From the NCBI RefSeq assembly GCF_036248275.1, contig NZ_CP109181.1, positions 5,642,001-5,706,000 of the forward strand: a stretch of DNA of 64,000 nt. Direction: 5' to 3'. The DNA comes from Streptomyces sp. NBC_01716. GTDB lineage: Bacteria; Actinomycetota; Actinomycetes; Streptomycetales; Streptomycetaceae. The notes beneath the pieces are model-generated. The model was given only the letters and a program-made list of their open reading frames with translations. It was not told the origin of the DNA and ran no database searches. A program made the translations under genes and the position numbers. Shown one piece after another: positions 10,935 through 23,270 of the stretch; the stretch's first letter is position 1; each line of letters opens with the position of its first letter.

Positions 10935-13016
10935 GTGACTCAGGATTTCGCGGACTGGCTGATTGGCATGCTCAATCAACGCAACCTGACCCAGAAGGAG
11001 TTGGCCGCGATGGTGGAGGTGACGCCGGCGGCGGTCAACGCTTGGACGAACGGTCGGTCGGTGCCCCGGTACGCGAAGATAGCGTCGATAGCGGAGGCGT
11101 TGGGGGTCGCTGTCGAGGACGCAGTGAACCGGCGCCCCCCGGAGTCGTCAAGCTCTGAGCTGGAATGGGTCTTTCAGAAGGCACCCGAGGACGGCAGCAG
11201 GATCGGGGGCAACGCGGCTGCCTACGCCTTCGCCGCGAACCTTGAGGTACTCGCACGCGAGGCCACGCAGAACAGCCTCGACGAGAGGCACTTGGAGGAT
11301 CGGCCAGTCACCTCTCGTTTCGTGCTGCACGAGTTGACCGGCAGTCACTTGAACAGGTTCCTCTCGGCGCTGAGATGGGATTCGATCGAGCAGCACCTCC
11401 GGAAGGCCGCCGACGGCCGGCAGAAGGCCGGCCGGGTATTGCTCGACGGGTTGAATGAACTCGATCGAACCGGCCGTCTTGTTCTGCTCCGCATTGACGA
11501 CTACAACGCCAGCGGACTGACCGGACCCGAATATGGCGACGGTCGTTTCGCGCGCGTCGTCCGTCGCACCCTGGACAGCGGCAAGGCAGAGGCGCAGGGC
11601 GGCTCGTACGGACTTGGGAAGGCTGCCTTGTGGGCGACAAGTCGATTCGGGCTAGTCCTGGTCAACAGCACATTGTCCGAGAAGCAGGACGGCCGTCACG
11701 AACGGCGCATGGCCGGCCGGTTGGAACTCCCCTGGCATACCCTGGACAGCGAGGAGTTTGCCGGGCCTGCCTGGTTCGGCGCCGCTGACCACGAACGTAG
11801 CAACGCAGCACGATCCTGGTGGGCCGACGGCGCCACCACGGAGAGCTTGTACCTGGAGAGGAATGATCCCTCTCCTGGAACCTCGTTCCTTGTGGTGGGT
11901 GCCTATGACGGGACCGGGGACACTGAAGAACTGGAAGAGATGCAGGCGCAGTTGACCCTCGGTATCGCCAGTAACTTCTGGGCGTCGATGGTCGGCGGCG
12001 CGCAGGCCGGCCCCATGCTGCGAGCGTCCGTCGCGTCGTGGCGGAACGGCGTCGCGGTCAGTCCCGAGCGGTACATCGATCCCCACAGCCACGAACCCGC
12101 CAGATCTCGTGCAGTCAAGGCGTTCCTCGATGGGAGTACCACTTCGGAGTTGACCTCTCGCGAAGATGTTCTTCAGGCGTCGGTGCAGCTCAAGTTGCCC
12201 TCCCGCAAGCAATCGGGGAGGGGAACTGCTCAGCCTGCTCAGTTCCACGACGCGGTGCTGCTCGTTACTCCGACGCTTGAGACGGATGCGAAGCCGGACC
12301 ATATTTCCTACATGCGTGCCAACCGTATGGTTGTCAAGAACAAGCGTGTGAGCGATCTCCCCTTGGGACATCGCCGATTCCAGGCAGTCCTACTGGCTGG
12401 ACTGGCCACTGGGAACAGCGGGCCGGATGCGCTCGAAGCCGAACAGTTTCTGCGCACCGCCGAGCCTCCGGACCACAATGACTGGACGAGTACCGAAGAT
12501 CTGACGGCAACTTATGTTCGTGGTGCTCGACAGTGCATCCTGAACTTCAAGAAAGCGGCTGAGCAGGAAATACGTGACCTGCTGAAGGACCAGGAGGAGG
12601 AGAACGACGCCGACGAGGGTCCGCAAATCCTCAGGGACTTGTTGACCCTGGGAACACCGAAAAAAACGCGTACACAAGGCTTTCCTGTGGTGCATGCTGT
12701 CTCGGGGGAGGTGGCCAGCAACGGTGCTTGGCAGCTTCGGGTGACGGTTAAACTTCCGGAGCGAGAGGAACCGTGGGTGCTCTCACCCATTGCTCGCTTC
12801 GTTGTGCGCTCCGGAGTAAATATTCCCGTCGAGTGGGCAGGAATGTTGGTTCCCGAGCAGGCCTGTGAGCTGACAAGGAACGGGAATCTCCGATTCCAAG
12901 AAGGTGCGAGGCGGGGCGTCTTCAGGGGAGTAACCGACATGTCCAGTCATCCTGTGGCGGCCGACATGTCTTGCATCGAGGTCGACCTGCCCCGCGCCAA
13001 GGAGATCGTTGAGTGA
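10935..13016 (+). CDS. HTH (XRE)-GHKL/HSP90-like ATPase fusion, defence island
   Basis: This 693-residue protein has an XRE helix-turn-helix at residues ~8-62 (LTQKELAAMVEVTPAAVNAW). A GHKL-type ATP-binding domain follows: N-box-like EATQNSLDER (109-118), DDYNASGLTG (188-197) and the glycine-rich GGSYGLGKA (222-230). The remaining ~450 residues match no domain I know and end in a beta-rich region. The GTG start follows GAGAGGGGC. It overlaps the next gene by 4 bases (GTGA), opening a three-gene operon. A defence role is inferred from its position beside the restriction-type operon; the HTH may autoregulate or sense DNA. Confidence 0.75.
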   Translation: MTQDFADWLIGMLNQRNLTQKELAAMVEVTPAAVNAWTNGRSVPRYAKIASIAEALGVAVEDAVNRRPPESSSSELEWVFQKAPEDGSRIGGNAAAYAFAANLEVLAREATQNSLDERHLEDRPVTSRFVLHELTGSHLNRFLSALRWDSIEQHLRKAADGRQKAGRVLLDGLNELDRTGRLVLLRIDDYNASGLTGPEYGDGRFARVVRRTLDSGKAEAQGGSYGLGKAALWATSRFGLVLVNSTLSEKQDGRHERRMAGRLELPWHTLDSEEFAGPAWFGAADHERSNAARSWWADGATTESLYLERNDPSPGTSFLVVGAYDGTGDTEELEEMQAQLTLGIASNFWASMVGGAQAGPMLRASVASWRNGVAVSPERYIDPHSHEPARSRAVKAFLDGSTTSELTSREDVLQASVQLKLPSRKQSGRGTAQPAQFHDAVLLVTPTLETDAKPDHISYMRANRMVVKNKRVSDLPLGHRRFQAVLLAGLATGNSGPDALEAEQFLRTAEPPDHNDWTSTEDLTATYVRGARQCILNFKKAAEQEIRDLLKDQEEENDADEGPQILRDLLTLGTPKKTRTQGFPVVHAVSGEVASNGAWQLRVTVKLPEREEPWVLSPIARFVVRSGVNIPVEWAGMLVPEQACELTRNGNLRFQEGARRGVFRGVTDMSSHPVAADMSCIEVDLPRAKEIVE

Positions 13017-13987
13017 AAAACGTCTTTCCCTATCCAATACTTGCAGGGGATGTCGCGCTCCTTGTCGAAAAGGTTTGGGTGGACAATATTCCACTCTCGC
13101 TCAGTCTTGTGTCTGACGACGAGTCGGTGATCGCCCTTCATTCACTCAAGCGTGACTGGAACGAAATCCGTGTGAACGTGGTTGTCACGGCCGACGCGGA
13201 AGAAATTTCCTCTGACGAGTGGGTGAATCCCTCCTGTGTGGCGGTATTGCGCAACAGGAAAACGAATGTTCGTCTGACATTTCCCCTCCATGAGGAGGAA
13301 GCGGGTGTCTGGCGTGGCGAGATCGAGCTGCGCCAAGGGGAGCACCTCGGCCGTTGTGAGATCGACGCATGGGTGGTGGCCGAGGTCAGGGGGGTCGGAA
13401 GTCGATTGATCGGCCGTGCCGTACGACGCTGGAGCGCAGATTTCGAAGCCAGACAACCCACGAGGCAGAGAAGCATCAAGATGATCTGGAAAGATTTTGC
13501 GGACCATCCCTTTCTCAAGGAGTTTCGTGACGATCCGTGGATGCTGGATGCAGAGGTCGGAGAGCCAGTTCTCTATCTGAATTCTTCGATCGAAGGGTTT
13601 CGGGCCGTGCTGGATGCGCCTTCCAACTCCAGTGCGGAGCGGAAACTCGTTCGCGAAGTAATGGCCACCCAAATTGCCTCTGAGGCGTGGACGGCTATGT
13701 TCAATACCGCTCTGTACGCCAGTTCGGTGGATGCGAGTGGCACACCGCAGTGGCCGGGGGGCTGGCAGGAAGAGGTCCTCCGTAAGATGCTTCCCGACCT
13801 TTTTCCCGAGATAGCACCCGATGAGGCGTTGGCGGAGCTCGTCGCCCGTCGAGAAGGCGGGGAGAGCGGATCGGATCTCCATGCGCGACTCATGCACTCG
13901 GCCACTCTGAACTCCAAGAAACAGAAAACCGTGGCAGATACCGTCAGGACATTGACGCGGATGGCCAACGGGAGGGGGCAGGGATGA
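13013..13987 (+). CDS. unrecognised protein, second gene of the HTH-GHKL triad
   Basis: A 324-residue protein that I cannot assign. The first ~140 residues look like beta strands (EIRVNVVVTADAEEI, VRLTFPLHEEEAGVWRGEIEL). The rest is helical with a conserved-looking WKDFADHPFLKEFRDDPWML and GGWQEEVLRKMLPDLFPE. There is no signal peptide or membrane segment. It overlaps its neighbours by 4 bases on both sides (GTGA, ATGA), so its product is likely needed in stoichiometry with them. It probably works in a complex with the ATPase; this is inference from gene order. Confidence 0.6.
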   Translation: MKNVFPYPILAGDVALLVEKVWVDNIPLSLSLVSDDESVIALHSLKRDWNEIRVNVVVTADAEEISSDEWVNPSCVAVLRNRKTNVRLTFPLHEEEAGVWRGEIELRQGEHLGRCEIDAWVVAEVRGVGSRLIGRAVRRWSADFEARQPTRQRSIKMIWKDFADHPFLKEFRDDPWMLDAEVGEPVLYLNSSIEGFRAVLDAPSNSSAERKLVREVMATQIASEAWTAMFNTALYASSVDASGTPQWPGGWQEEVLRKMLPDLFPEIAPDEALAELVARREGGESGSDLHARLMHSATLNSKKQKTVADTVRTLTRMANGRGQG

Positions 13988-14859
13988 GCCCGGGAAAGGC
14001 TGTCGAAGAGCCGTCAAGAATAGGTAGACTGCCGGATCTGGTTGCTGCGCGAGCGATCACACCAGGTGTTCTGCAAGGCTACGAGAAACTCTCCTTCGCC
14101 TCGTTCAAGGAAAAAGTCGAGGATCCTGTCGACAACACGGCACGGTGGGACACGGAGCCCGTCAGGGAACTGTTGGTGGAGGCCCGCCGCCGATTCGCGG
14201 ACAGTGCACCGACAGCCAGCGACGCATGGCTGGCTCCCCGCCTGCACTACACGCTGCGTCTCACGAGAAGTGAGGCGTCGGACTCGGGGTCGTGGAACTT
14301 CCTGGCGCTGTGTGTCGCGCCCGAATTCGTTCATTGGCGGTGGGCCGGCGGCAAGAACGGGAAAGGGGTGGGACAGGCGGCGCGTTTCGCGGGCAGGTGG
14401 GACTTGCAGTGCTTCTCTCGACTGTGGTGGGCCGCGGAACTCTTCCGTGACGGTAGTAACTACGGTCCGGTCGAGGTCGCATGCGGCAATCAGGACATAC
14501 TCAACACAGTGTTGCGACAAGAGATGATCCAGCACCGTCCCGCTGCGCAGGCTTTGCTGAGACTCCAGAGAGGTCGTGTCGTCCGTACGGGCCGGGATGT
14601 GAACGCCGCCGCATCGGCGGCGAATGCCGCAGCAGCCACGTTGGTTTACGAAGCCATGGCGCCTGATGAACTTCAAGATTCAGATGCTCTGCGCGAGTGG
14701 GTACTCGCTGCTGGGGACGACGCGTCGATCCAGTACGAAACGCTGCCCCAAGGGCCCGGTGATGGAAGCGTCCCTCACCGTTCGGCGGAGATATTGGCTG
14801 AATGGTTCGAGAAGTTGTTCAAGGACGCACCAGTGCGAGGCAAGGTGAAAGCCGAGTAG
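13984..14859 (+). CDS. DUF6339-like protein, third gene of the HTH-GHKL triad
   Basis: The 291-residue protein resembles, from memory, the DUF6339 family: WNFLALCVAPEFVHWRW, then ARFAGRWDLQCFSRLWWAAELFRDGSNYGPVE and a helical C terminus. The Trp/Arg-rich core stands out. No catalytic motif is obvious. It ends the triad and is convergent with the first methyltransferase, leaving 33 bases between stops. DUF6339 proteins have no known biochemical function to my knowledge; an effector or adaptor role in defence is only a hypothesis. Confidence 0.55.
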   Translation: MSPGKAVEEPSRIGRLPDLVAARAITPGVLQGYEKLSFASFKEKVEDPVDNTARWDTEPVRELLVEARRRFADSAPTASDAWLAPRLHYTLRLTRSEASDSGSWNFLALCVAPEFVHWRWAGGKNGKGVGQAARFAGRWDLQCFSRLWWAAELFRDGSNYGPVEVACGNQDILNTVLRQEMIQHRPAAQALLRLQRGRVVRTGRDVNAAASAANAAAATLVYEAMAPDELQDSDALREWVLAAGDDASIQYETLPQGPGDGSVPHRSAEILAEWFEKLFKDAPVRGKVKAE

Positions 14860-14892: not shown

Positions 14893-16143
14893 TCAGCCGC
14901 GCAGCCGCTCATGAATGGCCTGAGCCAGTACTCGGCCAAGGCCGACGGGAACGGCGTTGCCGATCTGGCGGGCAATCTGCACCTTGCTGCCGAACCACTT
15001 GAAGTCGGCGGGGAATCCCTGAATGAGCGCTGCTTCGTAGTGGGTGATGGGACGATCAGCCACAGGGTGGAGGTAGCGCCCTTTCTCAGGCTTGTAGAAC
15101 TCTGTGCGGATAGTAACGGAAGGACGGTCCGCATGCATACGTCCCATCACATCGCCGGAACCAGAATTATGTTTGTCCCAGCTCTCCGTGGACAAATACG
15201 TCTGTTCGCCGAGGACCAAGGCTGATTTATTTCTGAGATCATGGCGATTGCCACCGGGACCGATTGCTCGGTATCTCGCCAGGGAAAGAGGCGTAGGACT
15301 TCGTCCGATGTGAAGCTCAGTGGTCTTGTAGGGGCCCGGCAGGACGACACCCAGAGGTTTGTCCGTGCGTTCCGGGAGGTTGATCCGGCTCGTGGTCTTC
15401 CGCGTATGCGAGAAAACGGCGTCACCGACCACCACCCAGGGCTGGAGGAGCCGAATCTCGTCAGATTCCTCATCGAGGGTGGCCTGTGCTCCGCCGGCGT
15501 TCCGCGCGTGGGTGGGGAGAGGGTGCTCCAGAGCTGTTCCCAAGTCATTCCGCGTCGCGATGACGATTGCCCGTCTGCGGGCCTGCGGGACACCGTAGTC
15601 CGCTGCGTTGAGAATTTTCCAGCGCAACGTGTAGTCATCCAGGTCCCCGCCGGGGTCGGTCGATGCTTTGAGATCCTCGAATTCCTGGGACTTCAAGAAG
15701 CGGTCGACGTTCTCCAGGACGAAAATCTTGGGCTTGATCCTGGTGACAACACGCATGTACTCGCGCCACAAAAGATTTCGTGGATCGTTTGCCTTCGGAG
15801 GCTTTTTTGCGGGATTGTCCCTGTTGAGCGCCGAAAAACCCTGGCACGGGGGGCCGCCCATGATGACATCGATCTTCTCTCCCTCGTAGGGGAGGGTGTC
15901 CCACTTGCTGATATCGATGTTGGCAACGTGTGCGGAGCCAAAATTGGCCGCGTAGGTTGCCGCCGCCGCCTCGTCGAATTCCACAGCAGCCACGGATTCG
16001 AACGGTGACGACCCCGACCCGGCGGGTTGGTAGGCGCGAAATCCCGCAGAGAATCCGCCCGCACCCGAGAACAGGTCAACCACCTTGATCGTGGGTTCGG
16101 CGTTTGTCGCTGCCGAGGCAGTACTGATCGAGGTGGTCACCAT
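14893..16143 (-). CDS. DNA (cytosine-5-)-methyltransferase, intact
   Basis: A 416-residue C5-cytosine methyltransferase with all main motifs: SAM-binding DLFSGAGGFSAGF (23-35), catalytic GGPPCQGFS with Cys100, ENV (144-146), QARRR (187-191) and C-terminal QIGNAVPVGLG. The target-recognition region lies between about 220 and 350. It is the last gene of the minus-strand operon and presumably provides the protective methylation for the linked nucleases. The ATG start has no clear Shine-Dalgarno. A 94-base gap separates it from the second methyltransferase upstream. Confidence 0.93.
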   Translation of the reverse strand: MVTTSISTASAATNAEPTIKVVDLFSGAGGFSAGFRAYQPAGSGSSPFESVAAVEFDEAAAATYAANFGSAHVANIDISKWDTLPYEGEKIDVIMGGPPCQGFSALNRDNPAKKPPKANDPRNLLWREYMRVVTRIKPKIFVLENVDRFLKSQEFEDLKASTDPGGDLDDYTLRWKILNAADYGVPQARRRAIVIATRNDLGTALEHPLPTHARNAGGAQATLDEESDEIRLLQPWVVVGDAVFSHTRKTTSRINLPERTDKPLGVVLPGPYKTTELHIGRSPTPLSLARYRAIGPGGNRHDLRNKSALVLGEQTYLSTESWDKHNSGSGDVMGRMHADRPSVTIRTEFYKPEKGRYLHPVADRPITHYEAALIQGFPADFKWFGSKVQIARQIGNAVPVGLGRVLAQAIHERLRG

Positions 16144-16237
16144 GTTGCGTGAGTGTACTTGCCGCGAAGATCCATTGGGACGCGGTCCCACCGATGCGGG
16201 GCTCTTCGGGCGACACGTGGGCACCAGGCCGGGTCCT

Positions 16238-17239
16238 TCAGAGAGTATCAGCGGACCGTCGGAGAGCGTCCATGATCTGTCGACCTAGCGCAGCGGACAC
16301 GGGTGGAGGCGTGGTCTGACTGATCTGTCGGTACGCCGATGTCTTCCCGCCGACGATCTGCCACTCGGTGGGAAAGCCTTGGAGCAGTGCGACTTGGTCG
16401 ACCGTTAGTTTCGGCAGACCGTGGCGCGGCTCGATGTCGAAGTCTCTTCGGAAGTCGGGTCCCGGTACCGAGTTGCCGATGCTCCCACCGTAGATGCCCC
16501 AACGGGCCCAAAGCGCCTTCGTGCGGCTGGCCCCGAGGTCGGCGCCCCCTCGGCCGGTGGCGCCGCCCATGATCAGAGGTGCCGGCTCCGAGGCGTTGGC
16601 GGCCCAGTCGGCAGCCTCGGGCCACCCCGCTGAGGCCATCGACTCGTAGAGGGTTTCGCCAAGGGTGGGACAGCGCTTCGAGGTGGGAGTGGGCCACGTG
16701 AAGTGGGTCATGTCCTCCGCGTGCATGGCGATCACGAATCCGTGCGTCCGGTGTTGCGGTACGCCGAAATCGGTGGCCGTCAGCGTGGACGACACCATTT
16801 CGTAGCCCAGGTCTTCGATCGACTCCCGAACTGCGGCCCGCTCGGATTCGAACCTCGGGGCACGGAGAAACGTTGGGATGTTCTCGATGACGAGAACTCG
16901 CGGCCTGATGTATGCGGCCATGTCGAGCGTCGCCCGAAGAACGTCGCGACGGTCATTCGTTGCGAGTTGTTTGCCCGCGATGCTGTAGGGGGATCGGGGG
17001 AGGCCGCAACTCAGAACGTCGGCGTAGTCCATGGGTTGATGACTCACCGGTTCGATGCGCTTGAGGTCGTCGCAGACCGTGTACCACCCCGGGCGGTTGC
17101 GAGCGAGGGTGGCGCAGGTGTTCGGATCGATGTCGACCGCAGCAACCACATCGAATCCTGCCTGCTCGAGCCCCAACGCCTGCCCGCCGACGCCCGCGCA
17201 CAACTCGATCGCGGTGAACCGTGCTTCCTGCGTGCGCAT
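16238..17239 (-). CDS. DNA cytosine methyltransferase homologue lacking catalytic residues (pseudo-enzyme)
   Basis: At 333 residues this has the fold of a C5-cytosine methyltransferase: AIELCAGVGGQALGLEQAGF, SIAGKQL, IEN (E119), and DFGVPQ. The motif IV Pro-Cys is replaced by Pro-Arg (GLPRSPYS, Arg82 encoded CGA). Motif VIII QxRxR reads QHRTH (162-166), and the motif X GN is lost (RQISQTTPPPV, 304-314). The reading frame is intact and not otherwise degraded, so the protein is probably made. It may act as a partner, DNA-recognition subunit or regulator. It lies between the Z1 gene and the intact methyltransferase in the operon. Confidence 0.85.
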   Translation of the reverse strand: MRTQEARFTAIELCAGVGGQALGLEQAGFDVVAAVDIDPNTCATLARNRPGWYTVCDDLKRIEPVSHQPMDYADVLSCGLPRSPYSIAGKQLATNDRRDVLRATLDMAAYIRPRVLVIENIPTFLRAPRFESERAAVRESIEDLGYEMVSSTLTATDFGVPQHRTHGFVIAMHAEDMTHFTWPTPTSKRCPTLGETLYESMASAGWPEAADWAANASEPAPLIMGGATGRGGADLGASRTKALWARWGIYGGSIGNSVPGPDFRRDFDIEPRHGLPKLTVDQVALLQGFPTEWQIVGGKTSAYRQISQTTPPPVSAALGRQIMDALRRSADTL

Positions 17240-17279: not shown

Positions 17280-20207
17280 TCACGTGTCCTTGGAATCGAT
17301 CGTAGTGAATCGAATCACCTTCCCGTCACGACTGCGTGCGGTCGCCGGAGCGACAAATGTGAACGCCATCACAACCCTGCTCGGATCCATTCGGCCAGAG
17401 GCTTCGAATTCGGGCCGGTGCTCAGGTTCCACCACGGGGTAGAGGGATACGACTCCACGACGTTCCGCGACGTACTGCTCGGTTGTCGTGTTTCCTCCAT
17501 GGGGCAATGCGCCCGCGATGCGCAGTGCGGCCGCGCGATGCTTGGGCTCGCTGATGGCGCCGAAGACGTCACCGCGCCGGCGCCGGCGGCCGAACCAGGA
17601 GAAGGGCCGTGAGGAAGTGCCCACGGGAAGCCGCTTGTTCATGGAAGAGTGCTGGGGAGCCAGGACGACCCAGTCGTCCACCTTGGCCGGTGAGGCGAGA
17701 GTGATGTCTTCGAGGTAGGTGAGATGCGGGTCGAACCTTCCCGCAGCATCCCATTTGAGCGCTCGTAGCAGAGTCAGGAGTTCGTCGGAGGAGATTGTTC
17801 CGGAGAGGGCGTCGAAGCGGTGGTGTGTCGTCGCCTCGTCGTCGAAGTGGTACGCGAACGTACTCGGTTCGCTCGACAACGACTCCAGGATCGGCATCCA
17901 CAACTGAGTGTTGTGCCGTAGGGCGGGTGTTCCGGAGGGGTACGCGGTCGGTTCCTCCCACTTGCCCGGTGAATGGATCTCCACCAGGCGGGAGTTGTAC
18001 ATTTTATTGGTGCTCGCGGGGCGGAGCCAGGCCAGGTGCTGTGACACGAGGGGAGGCACTTGCGCGGGCGTGACCTGGGACTCGCCGTCGATCCGGGCCG
18101 AGTATTGCTGCAACTGGTCCCTGAAGCTCTCTTCGTCGCGGCAGATTGCCTCGAAGGCTTCGTACAGGTCGATGTCGCGCGTGCCCATCGTCTCCTCCCG
18201 ACCCAGATAGAGGCGGACCAGATCCTGATATCCCTTGCGGAAACCGAACCACCGGCCCATTTGCATGAGGGTGGAGGCGTTGTTGGTGCGGCGGCGGTAG
18301 TACGTGACGGTCAGGCCTTCGACAGTGAAGCCGCGGGCGAGCTTCTGGCCGCCGATAAGGACTTTCCACAGGGGCCGCTTGTCGAAGTCCGCTTCGCCGT
18401 TCTCGATGTCCGTGTCGCCGTTGACCACGACGATCGGTTGATCGTCGCCGCCGATACGGATGGCCGCAGCGCCGACGTACGGCGAAAGTTCCTCGTACGA
18501 CGCCGGCACGGGGAATCCGTCGGCTCGTACGCGCGAGACCGGAGCGACGTCCTTCTCGAAGAGGTCGCGCAATCGGGCATGACCGTTCGGACCGGTGTAA
18601 CCGGCGGACCACCACATTTTGTGGACCCGGCCCCGCAGCGCGCGGTGGTCGGCCGTACGGACCGACTCGTGGATCAGCATGGTGTGGTGCTGGAAGTAGC
18701 GGTCTCCCAGCCCGTTGCTCTCACGGTAGAGCTTCATGGCCGCAGTGAGCACGAACATGTCCATCGCCTGCTGAAGAGCGGTGTCGTCTTCCTCCGACTC
18801 CAGATGGATGTCGCGGACATGTGCCTTCTCGTTGGAGTTGGCGAAGCTGCGATCATCCAGAGGGATCGGAGAGTCCAAGTCGTGGAAGTCCTGGACACCC
18901 ATGTACCCGGCGGGTCGCGGCAGGGAAACGATGAAATCCTTGGGGAAAATGTCCTCGGCGTCGCTGGGGTCGATGAAGACATTCGCAAAGGGGGTCGCTG
19001 TATAGCCGACGTACTGGGCGCGGGGGAGAAGGCGGAGGAGTTCCGAGATCTTGTCGTTGATCGCGGTGCGTTCGGAGTCCTGCTTGTTGGGATTCGCGGT
19101 GTTGACCGATGCTTCGTCGGACTCGTCGTCGATGATCAGGACCGGGATCTCGGAGAGCGGCGTCTTGATCTTGTTGAGGTCTTTGACAAGTTTTCCGAGC
19201 ACGCTCTTGTTCTTCTTGACCACCATCAAGCGGGCGGATGAACGGTGGAGATTGCGCGGATCGTGCAGAGGCAGTGCGGGTTCCTGTTTCTCGAATTCCA
19301 GCGCCACGATTCCTTGGAGCAGACTCTTGTAGTCGTTGTCCCGTGTAGTCATACGGACGATGTCGAAACCGCCCAGGGCGGAGGGCAGTCCGCCGTGGGA
19401 CAGGAATTTACCCTGGGGCCATGCCGGGTCGTCGGCGTAGTCGGACTCGTACTCGGAGGCCCCACGCAGGATGTTCTCGCGGCCGACGAGTTCCATGTCC
19501 AACCTGCGCTGTGTCTGTGCCCTCAGGAGGTTGAGAGTGCCACCGAGGACGATGACCAGGCGGTACCCCGAGTCCACTGCCTTGGCGATGACGCCGGTGA
19601 AGTTGGCGGTCTTTCCCGACTGGACGTATCCCACAACCAGGCCCTTGGACTGGTAGGCGCTGCGAGCCGTGGGGTCCGCCAGGCGCTCCACGACGCGGTC
19701 GGAAGCCGCGTCCAGGCTTGCGACCGCAGTCTCGGACCAGCCCTTCTCCGAAAGGAGTTGACGGTATGCGGGCCAATACCAACTGCGGCCTTGCTGCGAC
19801 TGAGGTGTGTACCAGGGTTTGAAGATCTCGCTGATGACAACCGGTCCCGTCTCCTTGGGAACGGGGATCAGGGAATTGAGGATCTTCCCGGTTGCTTCTG
19901 CCAGCCCCAGGAGCGTCAGGACGGATCCGCGGCGTTCCTCTGTGCGCGGCTCGGTCTCCGTCCATGTGGGGTTCTCCGAGTAGTCCCACTGCGTCATCTG
20001 TTTGCGCCACAGTTCCACGAACTGGTCCGTGGCGTGGGCAGCATTGAGAGTCTCGAAGAAGTCGGCCTCGGTGGCGAGCAGTTCAGCCTCCGGCCCCTCC
20101 TCCTCGGATTGATACTCCAAGGCGCGGAGGAGATTCTTGGGTCGGCTGTCCATCCCGGCAAGGGCTGAGGTGTGCAGGGTGAGCCGCAGCAGTTCGGAGC
20201 TGTTCAT
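17280..20207 (-). CDS. Z1 domain-containing helicase-like ATPase
   Basis: This 975-residue protein has a P-loop GYVQSGKTANFTGVIAKA at about residues 193-210, a Walker B-like VLIIDDESDEASVN at about 360, and the Z1-type C-terminal half (ARGFTVEGLTVTYYRRRTNNASTLMQMGRWFGFRKGY). Z1 proteins are superfamily-2-type ATPases found in operons with MORC-like ATPases, cytosine methyltransferases and nucleases. Here it would power DNA translocation or remodelling for restriction. Of three consecutive ATGs the third is best placed relative to GAGG. It follows the PD-(D/E)XK gene by 14 bases. Confidence 0.9.
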   Translation of the reverse strand: MNSSELLRLTLHTSALAGMDSRPKNLLRALEYQSEEEGPEAELLATEADFFETLNAAHATDQFVELWRKQMTQWDYSENPTWTETEPRTEERRGSVLTLLGLAEATGKILNSLIPVPKETGPVVISEIFKPWYTPQSQQGRSWYWPAYRQLLSEKGWSETAVASLDAASDRVVERLADPTARSAYQSKGLVVGYVQSGKTANFTGVIAKAVDSGYRLVIVLGGTLNLLRAQTQRRLDMELVGRENILRGASEYESDYADDPAWPQGKFLSHGGLPSALGGFDIVRMTTRDNDYKSLLQGIVALEFEKQEPALPLHDPRNLHRSSARLMVVKKNKSVLGKLVKDLNKIKTPLSEIPVLIIDDESDEASVNTANPNKQDSERTAINDKISELLRLLPRAQYVGYTATPFANVFIDPSDAEDIFPKDFIVSLPRPAGYMGVQDFHDLDSPIPLDDRSFANSNEKAHVRDIHLESEEDDTALQQAMDMFVLTAAMKLYRESNGLGDRYFQHHTMLIHESVRTADHRALRGRVHKMWWSAGYTGPNGHARLRDLFEKDVAPVSRVRADGFPVPASYEELSPYVGAAAIRIGGDDQPIVVVNGDTDIENGEADFDKRPLWKVLIGGQKLARGFTVEGLTVTYYRRRTNNASTLMQMGRWFGFRKGYQDLVRLYLGREETMGTRDIDLYEAFEAICRDEESFRDQLQQYSARIDGESQVTPAQVPPLVSQHLAWLRPASTNKMYNSRLVEIHSPGKWEEPTAYPSGTPALRHNTQLWMPILESLSSEPSTFAYHFDDEATTHHRFDALSGTISSDELLTLLRALKWDAAGRFDPHLTYLEDITLASPAKVDDWVVLAPQHSSMNKRLPVGTSSRPFSWFGRRRRRGDVFGAISEPKHRAAALRIAGALPHGGNTTTEQYVAERRGVVSLYPVVEPEHRPEFEASGRMDPSRVVMAFTFVAPATARSRDGKVIRFTTIDSKDT

Positions 20208-20221
20208 CATCATTCCTCGGC

Positions 20222-21193
20222 TTACGGGATACGGATCTCGTGCAGTTCAAAGGGGAATTCGGCCGGTTGCGGCAGGCCACTCACATCGAGTGTGTATGTC
20301 ACGTCGCGCACCCGATCCCGCACGTGCGCCGGCACCGTTCTCATGTCGAGACGCGGTAGTCGGTCGTCGACCGGAAGCACGACGGGGTCATTGCGCATGT
20401 GCCAGCGCTCGTCGTCCGGCAGTTCGGGATCCCAACCCGATGCGGAGAGTTGTTCGTCGAAGAGATCGAGAGACTCCGGAGCCTGTTCTGTGATCTCGTG
20501 GCGTACGGCTTGAACGGAGTCCCGCAGCGAACGCCCCTGGGCGCCACCTCGTGTGACCTGCAAAGAGAGAAGCCACAAAGGGCGCTCATCGGTCGGTGTC
20601 AATTGGCCGAGACCGTGGACCGTGTGGCTGCGTTGCTCGGAAGCGGTCGTTTTCACTTCGAGGTCGAAGTCCGGAAGCCCGAAGTCGTGTTCTTCGCCGT
20701 ACGGGCCCTTCCAAGCCTGCACGGCGGCGGACCAGTCGCGGGCGTGGGCGATGGAGACAAGGACGCAGAGCTCACCGAGGATACCGATACGTTTCTGCAT
20801 TCCGAGGCCCCTCGGACGTTCCAGGAGAGCGCTCCAGGCTCTTACTGTTTCGGCGAAGGCCTGATCCAACGTGCGCTCATGAGTGACGATCCGGTCGGCC
20901 ACGGCGTTCAAGAGATCGTGGAAGTCACGGACGAGGGCGGCCTGGGTGGTTCTGATGCGAGCCATACGCATGCCCCGCTCGGCGATCTGATCGATGCGGA
21001 TCAGTGGTAGGGGCGACGTCGGGGGCTTGTGACGACTGTCCAGTTCCACGTAGAGGGCGATTTCCTCGTTGCCGCCGACCACATAGGAGACTTCGGGATG
21101 AGCCGAGGGCGCGGACAACCGGTAGGTTGTCGCCTGGTTTTCGCCGAGGTAGTACTCGACAGAGCGCCATGGAACGAACGGCTCGTCAGTCAT
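20222..21193 (-). CDS. PD-(D/E)XK motif protein (DUF4420), predicted nuclease
   Basis: The 323-residue protein carries a nuclease-like active site: GELCVL with Glu141, then LPDFDLEVKTT with Asp175/Asp177, Glu179 and Lys181, matching PD-(D/E)XK. This is the DUF4420 family that accompanies Z1 and MORC-like genes in predicted restriction systems. It is the likely DNA-cleaving subunit, together with Vsr. Its start overlaps the end of the MORC-like gene by 8 bases, implying coupling. Confidence 0.87.
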   Translation of the reverse strand: MTDEPFVPWRSVEYYLGENQATTYRLSAPSAHPEVSYVVGGNEEIALYVELDSRHKPPTSPLPLIRIDQIAERGMRMARIRTTQAALVRDFHDLLNAVADRIVTHERTLDQAFAETVRAWSALLERPRGLGMQKRIGILGELCVLVSIAHARDWSAAVQAWKGPYGEEHDFGLPDFDLEVKTTASEQRSHTVHGLGQLTPTDERPLWLLSLQVTRGGAQGRSLRDSVQAVRHEITEQAPESLDLFDEQLSASGWDPELPDDERWHMRNDPVVLPVDDRLPRLDMRTVPAHVRDRVRDVTYTLDVSGLPQPAEFPFELHEIRIP

Positions 21194-22721
21194 GGTCTCC
21201 CACTCTGTCGAGCTCGGCTCGCGCGGCCGAGACGAGGATCGACTGCCAGAGCTGCAAGTTGTCCCGTTCGCGGCTGCCGCTGTACTCCTTCTCGAACACG
21301 TCGTGCAGCAGCACGTACATCAGGGACTTGATCAACGGCGCGTCGTTGAGTCCACCGCGGCGCCCACCCAGAATCGCTGCCCGGTAGTGCTGATTGAGGA
21401 CGATCGAACGAGTTGGCCGATCGACCTCGAAAAAGAGTTCGTTGTCGAGTCGTTGCCAGCGGAGTGCGATCGCATCCTCGTGCGGGATGATCGGAAGTTC
21501 CTCCTCGATCGTTTCTCGTACGGCGCGGTCGAGGCCCTTGCCCGGAGGCAGTACCGGCTTGCGCGCAGTGCCGGCGCGTTTACGCGCATCCCGATAGGTC
21601 GTGTCGCTCGATGTCAGGTAGTCGAGGAAGGTGCGTCCGTCGCCGTCTGCCGCCGATTCGAGCGCGGAGGCGAACTGCGGGGCTGCCTCGACGCCGGATT
21701 TCTTCACGGTGAGACGGAAGGCATCACCGGGGGAGTTCGGAAGATCGATGGCGACGCGTGCCAATGAAAGATGTTGTTCGGGCTGACGAAAAGTGTTCCA
21801 ACCTCCGGCCTGGACGAGCCGGTTGTGCCGGTAGAAGTAGAAGCCCTGACGCTCCATGACCGAACCGACGGCTTTGTACTCGTCGAGGTTCGACTTGGGC
21901 GTCCAGACGTGGGCGTCCAACGTGACGTCACCGAACGAGGGCAGGGACGCGGTGAATTTCCGGGGGTAGTCGGGATGGCCCGAGACCGGATAGCCGAAGG
22001 GATCGAGAGGTTCGACACCGAAGTTCATGTAGATCGTTCCGGTCCGCACGTCCTCCACGGCGATGGTGATGTTGAAGTCGTCGCGGGCCAGGAATCGGTG
22101 CAGATGGAGGCCGAGGTGAAGGCCCAACTTGTTGATTGTCCTGTGGAGGTAACGGTCGGTCTGGCCTCCGCCCCCGTGCTTGGGGAAATCCTTGACACCG
22201 TCCCAGCGAACCACGGTGCCCTGCCACTCGATGGGGCGTTTGTTGTCGTAGCGATCGATCAACGTCTGGGCGTAGTAGGGATCGACGATGTCGCAGTGGA
22301 ATCCCGAGAGGGCGCGTTCCATCATCCAACGGCGGCCGGCTGTGCGAGTGCGTTTGGTGGTGCTGACGACGGTGACGGCAGACGCGTGGCTGAGCGAGGC
22401 GGACTTGAGCCCCGTACCGAACATGCCGAGCGCGTCGACGGCATAGTCGCGTCGTCCACCCACGGTCATCGCGACGTCGAGGGCCGTCTCGTCCATGCCG
22501 CGGCCGTCGTCCACGACCAGGAGGCTGACGAGCTGATCGCCATCACGGAGGAAGTGGATGACGACATCGTTCGCCCCGGCGTCGATTGAGTTGTCGACCA
22601 GGTCGGCAATGGCGATCTCGAAGCCGTACCCCTGGCTGCTGAGTGCCTCCATGTATCTCGCGTCGGGCGGCAGGCGCTTGCTCCCCACGGTGGGGACGTC
22701 AAACTTCCAGTCGTGGGTCAT
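21186..22721 (-). CDS. MORC/MutL-like GHKL ATPase of the restriction operon
   Basis: A 511-residue ATPase with textbook GHKL motifs: EIAIADLVDNSIDAGA (35-50, N44 for Mg2+ binding), VVDDGRGMD (69-77) and GMFGTGLKSASLS (99-111). An S5-like domain and a helical C terminus follow. Such MORC-like proteins in bacterial restriction-type operons were described by Iyer, Abhiman and Aravind as relatives of eukaryotic MORC ATPases. ATP-driven dimer closure would clamp DNA for the linked nuclease. I chose the ATG with GAGG just upstream; an alternative start is eight codons earlier. Confidence 0.9.
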   Translation of the reverse strand: MTHDWKFDVPTVGSKRLPPDARYMEALSSQGYGFEIAIADLVDNSIDAGANDVVIHFLRDGDQLVSLLVVDDGRGMDETALDVAMTVGGRRDYAVDALGMFGTGLKSASLSHASAVTVVSTTKRTRTAGRRWMMERALSGFHCDIVDPYYAQTLIDRYDNKRPIEWQGTVVRWDGVKDFPKHGGGGQTDRYLHRTINKLGLHLGLHLHRFLARDDFNITIAVEDVRTGTIYMNFGVEPLDPFGYPVSGHPDYPRKFTASLPSFGDVTLDAHVWTPKSNLDEYKAVGSVMERQGFYFYRHNRLVQAGGWNTFRQPEQHLSLARVAIDLPNSPGDAFRLTVKKSGVEAAPQFASALESAADGDGRTFLDYLTSSDTTYRDARKRAGTARKPVLPPGKGLDRAVRETIEEELPIIPHEDAIALRWQRLDNELFFEVDRPTRSIVLNQHYRAAILGGRRGGLNDAPLIKSLMYVLLHDVFEKEYSGSRERDNLQLWQSILVSAARAELDRVGDHD

Positions 22722-22823
22722 TTCCTCGCCTTGGAGAACCTGCAACTAATACGATGATTAGTGACCGTAGCGGTTGGGGCTGACAGTGGGTGTGGAAACC
22801 CGCCACGAGAAGTGCGGGGAGGA

Positions 22824-23270
22824 TCACGTTCCGCTTTTCGGTGGCCGATGTGGCGACGAAGTCGCCTCTCTGGTCCGGGCGACGGTACGTGAAATGTCCT
22901 TCGGATCCTCGTGTTCCCAGAATCGTAGGACCGTCCATCCCTCGGCTTCGAGGTGCTCGGTGGTTTCCTGATCCCGAGCGATGTTCTTGTCCAACTTCGC
23001 GCGCCACCACTCGGCGTTCGACTTGGGTCGGGTCGCGTGCTCGGGGCAGCCGTGCCAGAAGCAACCATCGAGGAAGACTGCGATCTTGGCCGGGCCGAAG
23101 ACGATGTCGATCGTTCGGCGAGGCATGCCCGGGACGGGTACGTTCACGCGGTAGCGCAACCCGGCCGCGTGGAGGATCTTGCGCACAGCGACCTCCGGGG
23201 CCGTGTCGCGAGAAGCCTGACGGCTCATACGGGCCGAGACAGCGGCGGACGAGGGAACGACTTTGGGCAT
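22824..23270 (-). CDS. vsr: very short patch repair endonuclease (Vsr family)
   Basis: The 148-residue Vsr-family nuclease has the conserved core RRTIDIVFGPAKIAVFLDGCFWHGCPEH; Asp55 and Asp68 are probable metal ligands and Cys/His residues form the zinc-binding part. Classical Vsr nicks T:G mismatches left by deaminated 5-methylcytosine; in these operons it may instead be part of the restriction machinery. It is the first gene of the operon, 102 bases before the MORC-like gene. A second start at Met15 (MSRQASRDT) is possible because homologues usually begin near there. Confidence 0.92.
   Translation of the reverse strand: MPKVVPSSAAVSARMSRQASRDTAPEVAVRKILHAAGLRYRVNVPVPGMPRRTIDIVFGPAKIAVFLDGCFWHGCPEHATRPKSNAEWWRAKLDKNIARDQETTEHLEAEGWTVLRFWEHEDPKDISRTVARTREATSSPHRPPKSGT

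Follow-up and report, generated by a model that had tools for sequence, protein, structure and literature searches.

A dead methylase paralogue that stands beside a live one is familiar from eukaryotes, where DNMT3L and METTL14 each form a stable heterodimer with one fixed partner. DNMT3L, for example, is a dead partner that gives the live DNMT3A contacts with DNA or activates it. How restriction-like systems distinguish unmarked target sites from self is best seen where the reading and the writing are done by a single enzyme, BREX being an example. There, according to the available excerpts of one study (PMC11842806), the BrxX/PglX methylase senses unmethylated sites for the defence complex, its binding to the site is enhanced by SAM, and this binding is proposed to start defence; mutation of the BrxX active site abolishes defence as well as methylation. 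In DndH, an inactive adenine-methylase domain occurs together with a target-recognition domain within a defence system, as described in the available passages of PMC10853773. Also, C5 methylases made of two polypeptides exist, such as M.AquI and M.EcoHK31I (PMC3404938, available in part).

The gene considered here lies in a stretch of 64,000 nucleotides from Streptomyces sp. NBC_01716, referred to as the window. On the minus strand at 16238-17239, an open reading frame runs uninterrupted from an ATG for 333 codons; frame 1 of the plus strand over the same interval is broken by stops. The product of 333 aa is a dead C5 DNA methyltransferase (a pseudo-Dcm), assigned from PF00145, Arg82, His166, the SQ of motif X, its place in a dead clade, and omega. 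PF00145 covers residues 8-323 (E 2.4e-42, 145.9 bits against a cut-off of 22) and model positions 1-323 of 324, placing the protein in the C5 fold family. The original prediction was that this second cytosine methyltransferase keeps its SAM-binding motif I and an uninterrupted frame and has lost its catalytic residues, and alignment with homologues bears it out in each particular. Motif IV reads GLP-R82-SPY, with Arg, encoded by CGA at 16994-16996 of the minus strand, in place of the catalytic Cys. Motif VIII reads QHRTH, in which the Q and the first R of QxRxR are present and the second R is replaced by H166, and the motif X sequence is RQISQ, against RQIGN in active-type relatives. Still present are motif I (ELCAGVGG) and motif VI (EN), and motif IX is readable. 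The window protein therefore lacks what marks an active C5 methyltransferase, both the motif IV Cys (present in none of the 109 dead-clade members) and QxRxR with GN. Since the nucleophile is replaced by Arg, no covalent intermediate is possible, and since CGA is two substitutions away from either Cys codon, a single base error is ruled out for Arg82.

The dead gene belongs to a minus-strand operon with, in order of transcription, a Vsr-type mismatch endonuclease (22824-23270; PF03852, E 8e-18, and TIGR00632 above cut-off), a MORC/MutL-type ATPase resembling MzaB (21186-22745; PF13589, E 3.5e-20), a DUF4420 protein resembling MzaD, a putative PD-(D/E)XK protein or nuclease (20222-21193; PF14390, E 4.5e-44), a Z1-domain protein of 977 aa resembling MzaC (17280-20213; PF10593, E 3.9e-51; NF041933, 260.8 bits against a cut-off of 1500), the dead methylase, and an intact C5 methyltransferase, or Dcm (14893-16143; GGPPCQGFS and PF00145). 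The Dcm adjoins the dead gene downstream and has 416 aa from the ATG at 16143, or 443 aa if the GTG at 16224 is used. Three plus-strand genes converge on this operon. These are M33A (10935-13016), an HTH protein (PF01381) and possible GHKL-type ATPase with a partial match to the PADLOC profile PDC-M33A (E 6.8e-23, residues 94-245); M33B (13013-13987, 324 aa), which matched no known family in the profile scans; and M33C, a DUF6339 protein (13984-14859; PF19866, E 2.1e-11). For the PADLOC candidate system PDC-M33, the matches are partial, to PDC-M33A and to PDC-M33C (E 4.9e-5).

In our own reading of its invariant residues, E109, N113, D116, and G222-K229 of M33A resemble GHKL ATPase motifs; hhalign against a MORC alignment gave a probability of 0.2%, and a PDB sequence search returned no relative. 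Two M33A homologues (L050:12656-16162 and L053:12531-16127; L numbers denote fetched stretches and G numbers genomes) were called at 1168 and 1198 aa against about 700, perhaps reflecting an extra domain or a gene-calling artefact. M33B was modelled by AlphaFold2 as strands followed by helices (pLDDT 74), and its fold search gave generic beta-sandwich matches only, none of them informative. For DUF6339, a PDB sequence search gave no relatives, and the predicted structure, with a pLDDT of 42.6, was not used. Among openly licensed papers, no description of DUF6339 or PDC-M33 was found, and the dead clade is not described in the available portions of such papers on inactive, two-chain, or mutant cytosine methylases.

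The spread of the dead form was traced in 392 genomes of the same genus, 264 of which gave matches (the weaker ones examined in part). Around the stronger matches, 120 stretches were fetched, one for each genome, with genes from a simple codon-usage caller. The motif IV residue of the 230 C5 methylases in 124 stretches (the window, L004-L006, and L037-L156) is Cys in 126 and Arg in 104, with no other residue. Other genera of the class were searched in 394 genomes; 43 gave matches, and 20 stretches from these were added. When the family of the window protein is taken as the C5 methylases scoring above 150 bits against it, residue 82 is Arg in 106 members (window included), Cys in 40, Ser in three, and nothing else. 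The Ser members come from one other family-level group (f17), which has Arg members as well; they are L186:9119-10090, L188:9348-10325, and L187:9386-10363, and two of the three also lack the motif VI Asn (ETT for ENV). Nine further mid-range matches in the same genus all have Cys, and two more genomes (G017 and G224) have Arg. The G224 copy (L233) is split between two frames by a frameshift. Counting these two with 101 others, at least 103 of the 392 same-genus genomes carry the dead form, one copy being frameshifted.

Arg at this site is no passing accident. The original prediction had foreseen that Pro-Arg might be shared by homologues from other Z1/MORC operons, or else that homologues in the same position might all have Pro-Cys, indicating a recent inactivating mutation or a sequencing error. 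Pro-Arg proved to be shared: GLPRSPY is found at the corresponding operon position in Streptomyces ipomoeae, which has the closest named relative of the gene and of the operon as a whole, syntenic and with the same gene order (74% identity), and in two further same-genus loci (69-75% identity). Each of the six codons for Arg occurs at this position (n = 104: CGG 42, CGC 27, CGT 14, CGA 12, AGG 8, AGA 1). Two maximum-likelihood trees were built with the motif IV columns excluded, both of them quick, without bootstrap, and with some long branches flagged: in the first, a branch with an SH-aLRT of 94 set the 104 Arg rows apart, and the enlarged one separated 106 Arg and 3 Ser members from 40 Cys members and 3 outgroup sequences with an SH-aLRT of 99. 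Arg and Ser interchange inside the dead side of the tree, and the Arg label needs three changes. The window protein belongs to a subclade of four in which an ancestral-looking catalytic loop is mostly intact (SPYSIAGKQ); most other members resemble VKSSAT. Among mobile elements, relatives of the dead methylase occur in 21 plasmid records at 27-41% identity (motif IV was checked in two, both Cys) and twice in phages at 39-42%, and a pattern scan of viral contigs gave relatives of neither the dead methylase nor DUF6339. The substitution of the catalytic Cys is old and fixed, not a recent mutation.

The pattern of conservation separates what the protein has kept from what it has let go. Conservation within the Arg group is 100% for glycines 16 and 18 of motif I, for the Asn of motif VI, and for the Gln and first Arg of motif VIII; for the motif VI Glu it is 99%. 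In M.HhaI, the second Arg of motif VIII makes contact with the target cytosine (PMC4802922, available in part). None of the 106 Arg members has this residue, and its place is taken by Gln (60), Ser (22), His (12), or others (12); the Asn of motif X is found in 12 members, and 87 have His. Over the catalytic loop, residues 83-100, the commonest residue has a share of 0.61 in the Arg group against 0.88 in the Cys relatives, and no difference between the groups exceeds 0.05 in any of the other four regions. Most of the 19 group-specific positions lie in motif IV and the catalytic loop with its end (80, 82-85, 89, 91, 92, 99, and 101); the others are in motif VIII (165 and 166), in motif X (310), in the recognition domain (229, 230, and 239), and at 31, 36, and 133. 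The Nei-Gojobori omega of the dead methylase has a median of 0.146 and a range of 0.06-0.27 over 41 independent close pairs, with medians of 0.196 for the adjacent Dcm (38 pairs) and 0.18 for DUF6339 (32 pairs). Purifying selection maintains the dead methylase. A decaying pseudogene is ruled out by the low omega. The fixed Arg, the single dead clade, and the low dN/dS together strongly support the idea, put forward from the window alone, that the protein has a non-enzymatic role after catalytic loss.

Adjacency at first pointed to a dedicated pair with the Dcm next door. In 100 of the 106 Arg cases and in two of the three Ser cases, the gene directly after the dead one, no more than 400 bp away and in the same orientation, is an intact Dcm; L005, where a partner with Cys lies just downstream by tblastn and motif, makes a 101st adjacent Arg case. 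In L103 and L114, the intact Dcm lies 1.8-2.8 kb off, and L129 reaches a contig end. In L094, L098, and L187, the intact C5 methylase, whose Cys was checked, is at a distance of about 17 kb, and the M33 genes are on the same island. A solitary reader without a partner Dcm was considered for these three and dropped, since the wider stretches contain the intact methylase. DrmA and DrmB are matched in L094 and L187, and in L098 by tblastn at 84-86%. Stretches L204-L209 (in G340, G051, and G621) are islands in which DISARM-type DrmA/DrmB, genes for a helicase or large proteins, and an intact C5 methylase are combined with M33 genes, and the dead methylase lies at the far end. The partner Dcms fall into two classes of 76 and 24 members (mean identity 28%), and the class changes at least six times on the dead-methylase tree (100 rows). 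Two Cys members, L048:8937-11243 and L066:5234-7540, hold the same paired position beside a Dcm of the class seen in the window, in stretches without M33 genes; these are possibly a picture of the pair before catalytic loss.

M33A and DUF6339 are found in 106 of 109 dead loci (103 of 109 without the widening of three stretches) against 0 of 35 Cys loci, the latter in stretches 9-20 kb long, none of them widened. The exceptions are L045 and L114, which have the dead methylase without the module, and L075, whose genome (G344) has DUF6339 elsewhere on the same contig. When DUF6339 was searched alone, it was found in 108 of the 392 genomes: 99 genomes had both it and the dead methylase, two the dead methylase alone, nine DUF6339 alone, and 282 neither, with a Fisher p of 2.5e-79 that is overstated because the genomes are related and the dead state was sought only in fetched matches. 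After a recheck of the genomes with DUF6339 alone, the count with both rose to 101 and that for DUF6339 alone fell to seven, the others staying at two and 282. In addition, all 20 long dead methylases (575-660 aa) have an N-terminal DUF6339 domain, as checked with Pfam on one of them. Across the 67 loci that have all five genes and a class 0 partner, compared by pairwise distances that are not independent, the divergence of the dead methylase has a rank correlation of 0.56 with that of M33A, 0.49 with M33B, and 0.47 with DUF6339 against 0.15 with the adjacent Dcm; among themselves the M33 genes are correlated at 0.90-0.93. These observations point to a dead state that tracks the M33A/M33B/DUF6339 module more than the adjacent Dcm. 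The dead methylase belongs with these convergent genes, a point that the original prediction had missed.

The module also occurs without the dead methylase. In the 20 kb fetched from each, G025 and G322 have the M33 module and an intact Dcm with no dead methylase, and G137 (L225) has the full M33 module with no C5 methylase. In four other genomes (G012, G167, G256, and G265), the only DUF6339 match is a distant one scoring under 45, and the fetched stretches lack a dead methylase. Outside the class, four haloarchaeal plasmids match DUF6339, and three of them (L220, L221, and L222) have relatives of M33A, M33B, and DUF6339, together with one Cys methylase each and no dead methylase within about 24 kb. 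Helicase and phospholipase D genes resembling DISARM are seen in L221 and L222, and one of the haloarchaeal plasmids has an annotated Zn-binding protein. Since G025, G322, and G137 have the module without it, the dead methylase is not indispensable; these genomes and the haloarchaeal plasmids indicate that the module is older or more widespread than a dead reader, which would have been added to it and is not universal.

The target-recognition region spans residues 176-282 or so (16394-16714, minus strand; boundaries approximate, from alignment and conservation) and carries the signature RGGADLG, with HGG for RGG in active-type relatives. This domain and the core are equally conserved among dead methylases, with mean identities of 0.56 and 0.57. 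The recognition domains form one cluster for the dead methylases and one for each partner Dcm class; all 76 partners of class 0, 18 of the 24 in class 1, and 99 of the 100 dead methylases could be split for this comparison. Free shuffling of recognition domains among the partner Dcms would speak against a reader matched to its protector, and it was rejected because each class forms one cluster. The domain has not stood still, and H230 of the Cys relatives has become R in 97 of 106 Arg members and R239 has become G in 99 of 106; the window protein has R230 and has kept R239.

A hint about the site comes from the C5 methylases associated with NgoMIV in an E. coli plasmid and in N. gonorrhoeae, which are 39-40% identical to the window protein over 97-98% of the query and have the recognition-domain pattern APxxxGGxxxxGGxDLG in common with it. 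They differ in having Cys and QxRxR, whereas the window protein has Arg82, H166, and R230. The E. coli plasmid methylase (39%) adjoins an annotated NgoMIV-family endonuclease, whereas the window gene sits with M33, MORC, and Z1 genes. NgoMIV cuts GCCGGC, and it is a guess that the site of the dead methylase might be related to this sequence. Among the Cys members of the family in same-genus loci, 22 of 24 have no second methylase alongside.

Taking these lines together, we propose with moderate confidence that the dead methylase is a putative sequence-specific DNA reader of an M33A/M33B/DUF6339 defence machine, with the intact Dcm protecting the host. Of the three roles first offered, DNA recognition fits best and a regulatory subunit of the intact Dcm fits less well; a SAM sensor is conceivable, as motif I is kept. 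With its SAM-binding motif and target-recognition domain in place, the dead methylase would bind its site in incoming DNA and mark nothing as self. It would then deliver such sites to DUF6339 and M33A/B, and these in turn might engage variable effectors, a coupling that is a guess because DUF6339 has no usable structure model. The candidate effectors vary: MORC, Z1, and DUF4420 in the window, DISARM proteins elsewhere, or M33 alone. The adjacent intact Dcm would protect host sites, and Vsr would repair deaminated 5-methylcytosine. A reader of unmodified sites would gain from catalytic loss, and its preference for the site would survive if it still bound SAM and DNA. Extended to the Actinomycetes, the same idea becomes a split between reader and writer, in which the dead copy flags unmethylated foreign sites for M33/DUF6339, an exchangeable live methylase protects, and several effector sets are served; this broader version we hold more tentatively, as a plausible picture that could well be wrong. 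Some observations count against a DNA reader. The changes at H230 and R239 could mean that the site differs or that specific binding is lost, the module occurs without the dead methylase in the three genomes and three haloarchaeal loci above and the dead methylase without the module in L045 and L114, and adjacency to a Dcm in 100 of 106 Arg cases would suit a Dcm subunit too.

That last role, in which the dead chain pairs with the adjacent Dcm in a heterodimer as its specificity or allosteric subunit and gives DNA contacts or activation, is the main rival, and we regard it as unlikely. The near-constant adjacency in Arg and Ser cases is what it would predict, the equally paired Cys members of L048 and L066 suggest that the pair may predate catalytic loss, and two-polypeptide C5 methylases such as M.AquI and M.EcoHK31I offer a model (PMC3404938, in its available part). 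It has to accommodate, however, two partner classes with at least six class changes on the tree, a divergence correlation of only 0.15, three loci with the intact Dcm about 17 kb distant, and two window chains that, unlike those of split enzymes, match PF00145 nearly end to end. A dedicated subunit of the Dcm is the less fitting account because divergence tracks the DUF6339 module and the Dcm class is repeatedly exchanged. It is quite improbable that the protein is instead a shield or competitor, which would occupy sites as a dominant negative against the host Dcm or phage methylases. A recognition domain and SAM motif kept while catalysis is lost would suit such a role, and the authors of the DndH study proposed it for their inactive adenine-methylase domain (PMC10853773, available passages), yet it leaves the tie and fusion to DUF6339 unexplained unless there is a sensing complex, in which case it merges with the DNA reader.

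Still less probable is an operon regulator, which would repress the restriction genes by binding DNA and would sense SAM too. The invariant glycines of motif I suggest that SAM binding may persist, and some C5 methylases do control transcription; in the available part of PMC3978073, M.SsoII does so by way of an added N-terminal region, and the window protein has no such region before motif I. The dead gene persists where the effector genes around it differ, and an HTH is already present in M33A. An enzyme that still works, on another substrate or with another nucleophile, is very improbable. The motif VI Glu and motif I are kept, and the window's subclade of four has Cys78, four residues before Arg82, but at position 78 the remaining 102 of the 106 Arg members have Ala (74) or Gly (28), the cytosine-contacting Arg of motif VIII is missing from all 106, and the catalytic loop is relaxed. 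A nucleophile shifted by four residues was accordingly set aside, with Cys there in 4 of 106 only. As for a recently dead relic or a sequencing error, the losses are few in number, which speaks for it, and we give it next to no weight given a codon two changes from Cys, Arg in 106 family members, and an omega of 0.06-0.27 over 41 pairs; Arg in syntenic homologues refutes both a recent mutation and an error.

If the DNA reader is the right account, the presence of the dead methylase in about a quarter of the sampled same-genus genomes would be a natural separation of reading from writing. The protein also gives a handle on DUF6339. On the practical side, counts of PF00145 genes overstate the cytosine-methylating capacity of these bacteria, and the motif IV residue needs checking before such counts are used. 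Defence genes of Streptomyces are of further interest for strain engineering and transformation.

The operon resembles several known systems and differs from them in its details. Its MzaB-, MzaC-, and MzaD-like proteins score 124, 261, and 97 bits against MZA family cut-offs of 850, 1500, and 420; no MzaA or MzaE is among the matches listed for the nine operon proteins (the best 25 families for the two methylases). Druantia type II consists of DruE, DruF, and DruG beside DruM. Among the nine proteins, only DruM-type matches were seen, to both methylases (best 25 families each; complete lists for the other seven). DrmA and DrmB, which DISARM would have, gave no match in the window operon, and a CglI/NgoAVII-type system is represented by the Z1 protein, with no PLD or B3 domain in the nine proteins. 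Both window methylases being near end-to-end matches to PF00145, the pair is not a split two-chain C5 methylase either.

The survey of MORC/paraMORC neighbourhoods by Iyer, Abhiman and Aravind in 2008 (PMC2292703) describes a MORC-type ATPase, a superfamily II helicase, Vsr, a predicted nuclease, and a cytosine methylase together, an arrangement resembling that of the window; in the available portion of the paper, the dead methylase and DUF6339 are not described, and the word "inactive" is absent from its main text. BrxX of BREX is a live adenine methylase with both roles, whereas in the window the reading would sit on a dead cytosine-methylase paralogue, and BREX, the nearest precedent for sensing, is no precedent for a dead reader because, in the available excerpts (PMC11842806), mutation of the BrxX active site abolishes defence too. 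The DndH domain is inactive. It is of the adenine type, though, with an eroded SAM motif and as part of a larger protein (PMC10853773, available passages), whereas the window protein is a separate C5-type protein in which the SAM motif is kept and Arg is fixed. DNMT3L and METTL14 keep one fixed partner, and the partner class of the window's system is exchanged.
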